Assembly: GCF_000403785.1 (NCBI RefSeq)
Contig: NZ_APHJ01000035.1
Location: forward strand, 1-64,000
From: Gillisia sp. CAL575
GTDB taxonomy: Bacteria > Bacteroidota > Bacteroidia > Flavobacteriales > Flavobacteriaceae
DNA length: 64,000 nucleotides
Direction of reading: 5' to 3'
Both the position numbers and the translations under genes were made by a program. This document shows, piece after piece, positions 47,695-51,126 of this stretch. The number at the start of each line of letters is the position of its first letter. The stretch's first letter is position 1. The notes under the pieces were generated by a model that did no database searches, was not told the origin of the DNA, and worked only from the letters and a program-made list of their open reading frames with translations.

Positions 47695-48516
47695 ATGAGC
47701 TCCACTCAAAAGATTTCAGCGGTACAAAGGAATAATGTCAAGGTTGTTGGTAATGGAACTCAACCCATACTATTTGCTCATGGATATGGCTGCGACCAAA
47801 ATATGTGGCGTTATGTATATCCGGAATTTGAAGAAAACTATAAAGTTATACTTTTCGATCATGTGGGTGCTGGTCATTCCGATCATAATTCCTATTCTAA
47901 AGAAAAATATGACAATCTTTTAGGCTATGCAGAAGACATTTTGGAAATCTGCGAAGAGCTGGACTTAAAAGATGTGATTCTTATAAGTCATTCTGTAAGT
48001 TCTATGATAGCTGCCCTTGCTGCAAATCTAGAGCCTTCAAGATTTGCTAATTTAATAATGATAGGCCCGTCTGCCAGATATATTAATGATGAAGGTTATG
48101 TTGGTGGTTTTAATAAAGAAGATATAGACGATCTAATGGAGGCTTTAGATAGCAATTATTTAGGCTGGGCTGCTAATATAGCTCCTGTAATAATGGGGAA
48201 TCCAGATAAGCCAGAATTAGGTGAAGAATTATCAAATAGTTTTTGCCGAACCAATCCAGAGATCGCAAAACATTTTGCCAGAGTTACTTTTCTATCAGAC
48301 AATCGTAAGGACTTAAAATCTGTAACAGTACCAACTTTGGTATTACAGTGTTCCCAAGATATTATAGCTCCTGTAGAAGTTGGCCAATATGTACACGATA
48401 ATCTTCAGAATTCTGAATTTCAGATCCTAAATGCAACCGGACATTGCCCCAATCTTAGTGCGCCGGAAGAAACTACTTTTGCAATAAAGAAATATCTTGC
48501 AAGCACAACTTCATGA
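47695..48516 (+). CDS. RsbQ-like alpha/beta hydrolase
   Basis: Close relative of Bacillus RsbQ, the hydrolase needed for energy-stress signalling, and of the plant KAI2/D14 receptors. Catalytic triad Ser100 (SHSVSS), Asp222 (CSQDIIAP) and His250 (TGHCPNL). FAHGYGCDQNMWRYV, LFDHVGAGHSDHNSY and FLSDNRKDL align directly with RsbQ. 273 residues, no signal peptide. The stop overlaps the kinase start by 4 bases (ATGA), so it is co-produced with its presumed partner. Its natural substrate is unknown in every organism. Confidence 0.93.
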   Translation: MSSTQKISAVQRNNVKVVGNGTQPILFAHGYGCDQNMWRYVYPEFEENYKVILFDHVGAGHSDHNSYSKEKYDNLLGYAEDILEICEELDLKDVILISHSVSSMIAALAANLEPSRFANLIMIGPSARYINDEGYVGGFNKEDIDDLMEALDSNYLGWAANIAPVIMGNPDKPELGEELSNSFCRTNPEIAKHFARVTFLSDNRKDLKSVTVPTLVLQCSQDIIAPVEVGQYVHDNLQNSEFQILNATGHCPNLSAPEETTFAIKKYLASTTS

Positions 48517-50552
48517 GTATAACAAATAAGGATAAAAACCCTAAAGGGAGAATTACTGAAACTGCAGAGGAATTATATGAAAATGCTCCTTGCGGTTATG
48601 TTTCGTTTCTAACGGATGGAACTATCTATAATTTAAATACAACCTTACTTTCTTGGCTAAACTTCACTAAAGAGGAGGTGATCTATCTAAAAAAATTCCC
48701 CGACCTTTTTAAAATTGGCGGACAGATTTTCTTTGAAACTCATTTCTTTCCCTTGATTAGAATGCAAGGCTTTATTCAGGAAATCAATTTTGATATTGTA
48801 AGAAAAGACCGCAGTTCTTTTCCCGGTCTTATTAATGTAATTGAAATTCCGGCCAAAGGTTTAAACCCAATAACCTACAGAGCAACTATATTTGATATTA
48901 CAGATCGTAAGAAATACGAGAAAGAATTAATTGCTGCCAAAAAGAAAGCAGAAGAAGATTCTCATGCTAAGGCAGAATTTTTATCTACCATAAGTCATGA
49001 AATAAGAACTCCACTACATGCCATTTTAGGTATTGGCAACTTATTAAGTAAAACTCACCTTAACGAGGATCAAAAAGAATATGCAAAAATCTTACTGCTT
49101 TCTTCCGAAAACCTTCTAGGACTGGTAAATAATTTGCTTGATCTAAGTAAAATTGAAGCTCAAAAGGTAAAACTAGAAATGCGAGATTTCAATATTAATA
49201 ATATGGTGAAAATGCTGCAGCAAACTTTTAGAGTGAAGGCTGCAGAAAAGAATATTGAATTGTTGGTAGAAATGGACGAGAATGTCCCACAAGAGCTAAC
49301 AGGAGATCCAATAAAGTTATCCCAAATACTCACCAACCTTATTGGGAATGCCATAAAGTTCACCAAAACAGGATCTGTATCTATTATTATTGAACAACTA
49401 GAAACAGAAAAAAATAATTCACTTCTATCATTTAGAGTATGTGATACGGGAATTGGGATTCCGCAAGATAAGTTAGAAGCTATTTTTCAGGAATTTTCTC
49501 AGGCGAGTTATGATGTTAATCTGGAATATGGTGGCACAGGACTTGGTCTTACTATAAGTCAAAAACTGCTTCATTTGCACCATTCAGAAATGAAAGTGCA
49601 AAGTATAGAAGGACAAGGTGCCGAATTTAGTTTTGAGATTTGGTACAAGGTTAATAATAATTTTTCGTCTGCAAAGGAAAAAATAATTAGCAACGAGGAT
49701 AAAGAAATATTAAAATCGTCTCGAGTTTTGGTTGTAGACGATAATCCAGCTAATATCTATATTACTTCTCAGTTTCTAAATAATTGGAATTTAGAAAATG
49801 AATCGGCTAAAAGTGGTAGAGAAGCATTAAATATGCTGAAAAATAAGCACTACGACCTTATTTTGCTGGATTTACACATGCCTAAATTAAATGGATATAA
49901 AACTGCTAAGGAAATTCGTGCTTTAAATATTTCCAAGCAACCAATTCTAATAGCCTTATCTGCTTCAGAAAGAGGAGAGATAAACTATAAACTACAAAAG
50001 GCAGGATTCCAAGATCACGTTCCGAAACCCTTTCAACCGGAAAAATTACTAGAAACGCTAGTGTATTATTTACATAATCCTAATAATATAGGTAAGGAGA
50101 ATTTTATAGAGGTCGAAGAGGAGACAAGAGAGGAAATTGAAGAGATTGAAATCAAAAATAAGCCTTCAGAAACTCAACAACTAAAGAACACAACTTTTGA
50201 TGTGTCAAAGTTTGTGAAAATGGCTAATAATAATCCTATTTATATAGATAAATTTATCAAAAGCACCTTAGATGCACTTATTATCTATGAGCAAGAATTC
50301 TTGGAAGCTGTAGATGCTAAGAGTGCGGAAATGCTTGGGAATCTTATCCACAAAAGCACTATGTCTGTTTTCTATATTCAGGCAGATAAGCTTAGTATAC
50401 TTATGGAAGAAGTTAAAACCTTGATTGAGAAAAATGTTGCATCAACAGAAGTTCTTCAGAAGAAATCTAAAGCTTGCTCCAGAGAATTTCATAAAATCAT
50501 TAAAGGTTTACAAGAAATAAAAGCTGAAGAGATCCTAGCTCTTACAGATTAA
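48513..50552 (+). CDS. PAS-domain hybrid histidine kinase (HisKA-HATPase-REC-HPt)
   Basis: Cytoplasmic hybrid kinase of 679 residues with no membrane helix. PAS domain at about 15-130, containing FETHFFPLIRMQGFIQEINF; kinase core with phosphorylatable His162 (TISHEIRTPLHA), N box NLIGNAIKFTK, G1 DTGIGIP and G2 GGTGLGLT; receiver at about 403-525 with Asp409, Asp410 and phospho-acceptor Asp453; and a C-terminal HPt-like domain with His613 (NLIHKSTMSV). The PAS is of the kind found in RsbP, the phosphatase partner of RsbQ. No DNA-binding output was seen, so the phosphoryl group should pass to a separate regulator. Confidence 0.9.
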   Translation: MSITNKDKNPKGRITETAEELYENAPCGYVSFLTDGTIYNLNTTLLSWLNFTKEEVIYLKKFPDLFKIGGQIFFETHFFPLIRMQGFIQEINFDIVRKDRSSFPGLINVIEIPAKGLNPITYRATIFDITDRKKYEKELIAAKKKAEEDSHAKAEFLSTISHEIRTPLHAILGIGNLLSKTHLNEDQKEYAKILLLSSENLLGLVNNLLDLSKIEAQKVKLEMRDFNINNMVKMLQQTFRVKAAEKNIELLVEMDENVPQELTGDPIKLSQILTNLIGNAIKFTKTGSVSIIIEQLETEKNNSLLSFRVCDTGIGIPQDKLEAIFQEFSQASYDVNLEYGGTGLGLTISQKLLHLHHSEMKVQSIEGQGAEFSFEIWYKVNNNFSSAKEKIISNEDKEILKSSRVLVVDDNPANIYITSQFLNNWNLENESAKSGREALNMLKNKHYDLILLDLHMPKLNGYKTAKEIRALNISKQPILIALSASERGEINYKLQKAGFQDHVPKPFQPEKLLETLVYYLHNPNNIGKENFIEVEEETREEIEEIEIKNKPSETQQLKNTTFDVSKFVKMANNNPIYIDKFIKSTLDALIIYEQEFLEAVDAKSAEMLGNLIHKSTMSVFYIQADKLSILMEEVKTLIEKNVASTEVLQKKSKACSREFHKIIKGLQEIKAEEILALTD

Positions 50553-50715: not shown

Positions 50716-51126
50716 ATGTCTAATACTATTTGTTATATAAGTAATGCGAGTGAATATTTAGTTGAAAAAGATATTAATGAACTTTTTGATAAAGTAACTG
50801 CATTTAATAATTCCAGAGGAATTAAAGGTATTTTGCTTTATAGTTCAGGGAATTTCTTTCAAATTTTGGAGGGTAATAAGGAAACTATTAATGACCTATT
50901 TTATAATCGAATAAAATTAGATCCAAGACACAGCAATATTTTTGTTGTTATAGAAAAGCAATATCCGAGTTCAGTCTTTAATGAATATAGTAGTAAATTC
51001 AACACGGTTAAGAATTCTGCAGACCTGAAAAAGATCATTTCCTATTTAGAGAACAATAAATATAACTCCACACACGAAAAATTGAAACGCCTTCTCGGTC
51101 CATTTTTATTTTCTATGGAAGATTAG
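50716..51126 (+). CDS. BLUF-domain blue-light receptor
   Basis: Short single-domain flavin photoreceptor of 136 residues. The flavin-switch residues are present: Tyr7 (CYISNAS), Asn31/Asn32 (FNNSRGIKGILLY) and Gln49 (GNFFQILEG). The usual Trp and Met of the FxxWxM segment appear replaced by Tyr91 and Ser93 (VFNEYSSKF). A C-terminal helical cap (about 100-136) is the likely output region. It starts 163 bases after the hybrid kinase on the same strand; a functional link is possible but not shown. Confidence 0.87.
   Translation: MSNTICYISNASEYLVEKDINELFDKVTAFNNSRGIKGILLYSSGNFFQILEGNKETINDLFYNRIKLDPRHSNIFVVIEKQYPSSVFNEYSSKFNTVKNSADLKKIISYLENNKYNSTHEKLKRLLGPFLFSMED

Follow-up and report, generated by a model that had tools for sequence, protein, structure and literature searches.

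An RsbQ-type hydrolase gene overlapping the gene of a hybrid histidine kinase with an RsbP-type PAS domain in Gillisia sp. CAL575: a further example of the RsbQ/RsbP-PAS module

The stretch of DNA analysed here (the window, 64,000 nucleotides) comes from Gillisia sp. CAL575, a member of the Flavobacteriaceae, and is part of contig C34 in a genome of 3.64 Mb. On its forward strand lie two overlapping genes, the first of which (47695..48516, +) encodes an RsbQ-type alpha/beta hydrolase of 273 aa that matches Abhydrolase_1 (E 5.3e-20). Its best solved relative is Bacillus subtilis RsbQ, 1wom (E 7.9e-89, query residues 8-269), followed by Olei00960 and then by KAI2/D14 chains, the KAI2 group reaching about 1e-61; the other alpha/beta hydrolases listed score 6e-20 or weaker, and the window hydrolase is thus closer to RsbQ. 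Among the best 80 of 262 RsbQ relatives, the closest named ones belong to G. hiemivivida (L015, 89%) and to a Flavobacterium-labelled metagenome-assembled genome (L014, 89%). The catalytic triad is complete and made of the nucleophile Ser100 (codon at 47992..47994, +), Asp222 (48358..48360, +) and His250 (48442..48444, +), each of them conserved in 108/108 aligned RsbQ relatives (108 of 110 loci, without L149 and L050). The stop codon of the hydrolase and the start codon of the kinase share the four bases ATGA (48513..48516, +). An earlier note on this DNA had described both open reading frames, their coordinates, the 4-base overlap and the triad S100/D222/H250, and all of these are confirmed, the residue numbering being exact.

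The second gene (48513..50552, +) encodes a hybrid histidine kinase of 679 aa with the architecture PAS-HisKA-HATPase_c-REC-(probable HPt). The RsbP-type PAS domain covers residues about 20-131 (48570..48905, +), contains C27, Q71, F73, H77, P80, E90 and P104, and carries a DIT motif at 128-130. It is followed by HisKA with the phospho-acceptor His162 (48966..49160, +), HATPase_c (49302..49640, +) and a receiver domain with Asp453 (49725..50060, +). These three domains score above the Pfam cut-offs, while PAS_9 falls narrowly below its own (26.4 vs 27.0 bits). With a maximal 19-residue Kyte-Doolittle mean of 1.23, the kinase looks soluble by hydropathy, so that the soluble kinase with PAS, HisKA, HATPase and receiver proposed earlier is borne out. 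Pfam detects no SpoIIE/PPM domain in it, and it therefore does not fit the RsbP sigma-B energy-stress pathway, in which a PPM phosphatase acts on RsbV. The weakest of the domain calls is the C-terminal one, a probable HPt with His613 (50193..50549, +). Pfam finds no Hpt at the C-terminus of the kinase with E values up to 1, and only sub-threshold matches in 2/5 relatives scanned. However, a tail homologous to the C-terminus of the window kinase is present in 32 of the 97 PAS partners described below, and the candidate phospho-histidine is kept in 30 of these 32. The HPt claimed by the earlier note is thus backed by a conserved tail and histidine in relatives, but not by Pfam on the window itself.

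The bipartite RsbQ/RsbP-PAS module was described in 45 pairs by Nadezhdin, Brody and Price (2011), with a PPM phosphatase, a histidine or hybrid kinase, or a diguanylate cyclase as output, the kinase types being found in Gram-negative bacteria (PMC3183031). That the window pair is a further example of this module is well supported: an RsbQ homologue lies directly upstream, the RsbP-type PAS is the most N-terminal domain and its residues are conserved. Hybrid kinases are among the outputs published, three kinases of that study having a C-terminal receiver; the window adds the DIT motif and the probable HPt. A shared input module with a phosphorelay output, as first proposed from the sequence, therefore holds, but the replacement of the phosphatase by a kinase is no novelty, since kinase and hybrid-kinase outputs had already been described in 2011 (PMC3183031). 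The B. subtilis RsbQ-RsbP pair has the same hydrolase, PAS type and gene order, but a PPM phosphatase where the window has a hybrid kinase with a receiver, and no sigma-B pathway is implied here. The stress or hormone-like circuit suggested at first had homology as its sole basis, and the energy-stress assumption is termed unsupported by the authors of the 2011 study (PMC3183031). More recently, an eLife paper of 2025 cited the module and presented an AF2 complex of 2RsbP/2RsbQ in which RsbQ sits between PAS and linker (PMC12143880). The host belongs to the Bacteroidota; in the main text of PMC3183031, its species figure and supplements apart, neither “bacteroidetes” nor “flavobacter” occurs. 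Within the open full-text literature, a scope that most subscription papers fall outside, no paper joins RsbQ, Bacteroidetes and hydrolase.

At the ten characteristic PAS positions, RsbP C10, L13, L48, Q53, F55, C56, Y59, P62, E72 and P86, the window has C, V, F, Q, F, F, H, P, E and P respectively, so that 6/10 are identical, and the change of Y59 to His remains within the published HY class. The B. subtilis RsbP letters used in this alignment fit the published ones at 10/10 of the numbered residues. Judged by this alignment, the window PAS retains the function-linked residues of the 2011 study, identically or by class. They include the equivalent of F55, whose exchange for alanine in RsbP abolished both RsbQ binding and signalling (PMC3183031). 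Among the 97 PAS partners, Cys at position 10 and His at position 59 are each found in 89, P62 and E72 each in 96, and P86 in 83. An AF2 model of residues 1-150, made without the hydrolase, shows a single PAS fold (pLDDT 86.1) with residues 1-16 disordered. Its long helix F-alpha (68-85) runs through P80, which corresponds to P62 of RsbP, a residue that the 2011 authors could not place structurally (PMC3183031). Among solved structures, the model comes closest to LOV and haem-PAS domains, including FixL; profile searches recognised no RsbP-type PAS there, with one partial match at E<=0.001. A haem or LOV-type PAS was considered, but no cofactor is claimed: the model is FixL/LOV-like, and 5/5 alignments shown, out of 47 matches listed, end before F-alpha.

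The C-terminal motif of the window PAS is FDITD. DIT is found in 19/97 partners, the window included, and DMT in two more, while the text of the 2011 paper gives the motif as absent from all RsbP-PAS sequences of that study (PMC3183031); coupling in the window may thus differ from that in RsbP. In its looser form D[ILMV][TSA], the motif is present in 32/79 kinases vs 0/15 phosphatases, and kinase members may, as we infer from these sequences, use the common PAS-to-helix coupling. In the published class, a coiled coil of 21 residues or more links the PAS to the output domain (PMC3183031). In the model, a helix at 130-149 points to HisKA, which starts at 152, and reaches the modelled end. Counted from the Arg that follows the motif, the phospho-His is 30 residues away in 30/32 HPt hybrids. 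Across the 71 kinases measured, this distance takes the values 30, 37, 44 or 51, in heptad steps, in 46, a number inflated by near relatives, and falls outside the heptad series (61, 64, 43) in the other 25.

How constant is the pairing? An RsbP-type PAS protein lies immediately 3′ of RsbQ on the same strand at 97/110 distinct loci. This set combines the loci from family, phylum and genus searches with named genome loci, of which the best 80 of 262 relatives were kept and which lean to close relatives. In 395 Bacteroidota genomes sampled without regard to the partner, 20/24 RsbQ loci have a PAS neighbour. Adjacency at 97/110 loci is far beyond chance, and these two counts answer the earlier call for a check of conserved coupling across genomes in the affirmative. 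RsbQ itself (E<=1e-50) is patchy, occurring in 13/249 genomes of the family, 22/395 of the phylum sample and 5/16 of the genus, with the window's own genome in each. In the 97 pairs, the gap is within 30 bp in 94, 44 being touching or overlapping and 20 having the -4 overlap; the script took the starts nearest to the RsbQ stop, and these lengths are thus biased downwards. One partner counted among the 97, in Christiangramia echinicola (L030:5820-6110), ends after 96 aa inside the PAS and may belong to a broken or frameshifted kinase gene. The 13 exceptions are nine Hymenobacteraceae-type loci with a small STAS-fold protein, two RsbQ orphans without a partner (L138 and L147), a locus that ends with its contig (L149), and L148, where an 827-aa open reading frame without RsbP-type PAS match (L148:3792-6275 of the oriented locus) adjoins a divergent RsbQ of about 39% identity.

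The converse search, with a profile of 41 RsbQ-linked PAS domains against the 395 Bacteroidota genomes, yields 32 matches at E<=1e-20, of which 20 adjoin RsbQ. The top 20 (at least 111 bits) are 19 of these 20 plus G348, where the PAS lies at a contig start and RsbQ at the end of another contig of the same genome. The remaining adjacent match, in G605, scores 99.5 bits, under three unlinked matches (105 to 110.9 bits). Eleven matches are unlinked, in open frames of 511-2544 aa. The profile (A2) contains the window and L021 (=G382), so these two match by construction. As for the wider neighbourhood, no recurring DNA-binding regulator is seen among the first 30 neighbour families listed (common to at least three of the 110 loci), and the idea of a conserved third gene was dropped, such a regulator not being prominent there. 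Within the genus, the neighbours vary: L151 has no further homologue of the window genes, L150 has an alanine/sodium symporter and L152 has the peptidase neighbour of the window.

The outputs of the 97 partners, assigned by profiles built in this analysis, are diverse. HisKA-HATPase-REC-HPt is found in 32, two of which are Myxococcota (L043, L054), followed by HisKA-HATPase (23), phosphatases (15), HATPase-REC (12), HATPase only (5), HisKA only (4), HisKA-HATPase-REC (2) and proteins with two receivers (2), two being unassigned. Placed on an RsbQ tree of 107/110 rows (L149, L050 and L030 left out), the output labels require 17 changes vs 61.8 in shuffles: the outputs cluster on the tree, yet have been exchanged repeatedly. 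By eye, the sequences around four non-hybrid kinases without a receiver (L033, L037, L127, L136) have a free-standing receiver-like protein in common.

The nine STAS-type loci (L053, L055, L064, L065, L069, L076, L077, L085, L093) belong to Rufibacter, Sabulibacter, Pontibacter and Adhaeribacter. There, RsbQ is followed by a small protein of 97 to 151 aa after a gap of 6 to 171 bp (mechanical starts), with no PAS protein. No Pfam family matches in the two members scanned, and 28 columns are invariant when 8 of the 9 are aligned. The AF2 model of the L069 partner (pLDDT 90.2; two of the five models are poor, at 69 and 61) matches SpoIIAA 1h4y (E 7.4e-5) and RsbS 6jhk (E 3.7e-4, TM 0.67 by query), and the small partner is accordingly predicted to have a STAS fold like that of SpoIIAA/RsbS. 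Relatives of this STAS-like domain occur in 9/295 genomes of the class, with multiple free copies in two of them. Other Pontibacter and Adhaeribacter loci (L031, L060, L073, L091, L035) have the PAS-kinase type, and the STAS-paired RsbQ set is separated from the rest of the tree by a branch with weak support (61%). The STAS-like domain is also found C-terminally in kinase-like proteins of 510-967/973 aa in Bacteroidota (L172, L173, L174, L175), the gene for the one in L172 lying some 4 kb 3′ of an RsbQ-PAS-kinase pair.

The two genes very probably act together as a sensor. The mechanism that we favour, with somewhat better than even confidence, is that this two-gene RsbQ/RsbP-PAS module drives a phosphorelay, with the hydrolase as a receptor docked on the kinase PAS. 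What is observed here comprises the gene pair with its unbroken triad, the recurrence of the pairing across loci, the signature residues of the PAS and the spacing of the linker. The RsbQ-type hydrolase would dock on the outward-facing side of F-alpha, in the F73/H77 region; direct contact with the PAS and the need for the triad are both taken from B. subtilis work and would apply here by analogy. A small molecule bound or slowly turned over in the Ser-Asp-His pocket would alter this contact, and the change would travel from the PAS beta-sheet via the DIT motif and a short helical connection to the HisKA dimer. Autophosphorylation of His162 would be altered in turn, the phosphate presumably moving to Asp453, then His613 and finally a response regulator. 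Which way the effect runs, that the receptor is the hydrolase and not the PAS, and this phosphate path are inferred. Against the model, we count the departures from RsbP at L48 (Phe), C56 (Phe) and L13 (Val), the DIT motif, the weak Pfam signal for the HPt, the 25 kinases outside the heptad series and the absence of a recurring DNA-binding regulator from the 30 neighbour families listed.

Could the hydrolase instead feed the PAS? In Model 1 of 2011, which the version in the earlier note resembles, it produces a small molecule, or releases a cofactor, for the PAS cleft, and the PAS is the sensor. The triad kept in 108/108 relatives, the null phenotype of B. subtilis active-site mutants (PMC3183031) and the closeness of the PAS model to LOV and haem PAS folds, which bind ligands, all speak for such a delivery, as does G124, a Gly as in RsbQ/DAD2 where KAI2 has Ser, in a geometry tied to PMSF reactivity (PMC3548789). 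Yet RsbP, according to the text of the 2011 study, yielded no cofactor or ligand (PMC3183031), and the nine loci above keep a triad-intact hydrolase next to a PAS-less STAS-fold partner, hence without any PAS cleft. This last arrangement speaks for a receptor role of the hydrolase itself, which is Model 2 of 2011, rather than for product delivery; the support that it brings is new and slender, and amounts to a hint. Sensing of a hydrolase product by the PAS, one of the two published models, is rather unlikely in our view, the STAS-fold partner leaning mildly towards the hydrolase as sensor. If functional, the STAS-fold pairing would help to decide which half of the module senses. A broader version, in which RsbQ serves generally as an intracellular small-molecule receptor like D14/KAI2, the hydrolase being the sensor and its signal being read by RsbP-type PAS domains in most lineages and by a free STAS-fold protein without a PAS in Hymenobacteraceae, is tentative and less likely than not.

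That hydrolase and kinase are mere co-transcribed neighbours without functional contact is very improbable. The RsbQ orphans L138 and L147 and the unrelated 827-aa frame beside the RsbQ of L148 would agree with it, but 97/110 loci (including the best 80 of 262 relatives) are paired across Bacteroidota, Pseudomonadota, Actinomycetota, Acidobacteriota, Spirochaetota, Myxococcota and Ignavibacteriota, the flanking genes vary while the pairing stays, and the residues required for RsbQ binding are conserved. Very improbable, too, is a light or redox input through the gene that follows. This gene (50716-51126, +), which encodes a stand-alone BLUF blue-light receptor (BLUF E 1.2e-21), starts only 163 bp downstream of the kinase. 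However, there is no BLUF at the other loci examined (flanks of 1.5 to 5 kb, some ending at contig ends), and BLUF is commoner in the genus than RsbQ, being present in 16/16 genomes, with four copies in the window's own, against 5/16. Light sensing by BLUF is rejected on these grounds, and the neighbour is probably incidental.

The RsbQ-PAS module shares its receptor fold with the plant strigolactone and karrikin receptors: KAI2/D14 have the same hydrolase fold, triad and cap as the window hydrolase, but act in plants without a PAS partner, and the window has Gly vs Ser in KAI2 at the PMSF-inertness position. In LuxP-LuxQ, an analogy drawn in PMC3183031, a separate small-molecule-binding protein is read by the PAS domains of a hybrid kinase; LuxP is periplasmic and not a hydrolase, and the likeness is by analogy only. 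In the compact and translationally overlapping kinase version, autophosphorylation in the presence or absence of the hydrolase offers a straightforward biochemical assay. As to where the two proteins might touch, a PAS-contact patch on the RsbQ lid was considered, N154, G157, P188 and I190 being conserved in the PAS-paired set and relaxed in the STAS-paired one, with N154/G157 relaxed also in three orphan RsbQs. The patch was dropped, since 0 to 7 columns of this kind are lost in control groups and the KAI2-like 6atx keeps N154, P188 and I190; G157, which is Ala in 6atx, remains as a weak candidate for PAS contact.
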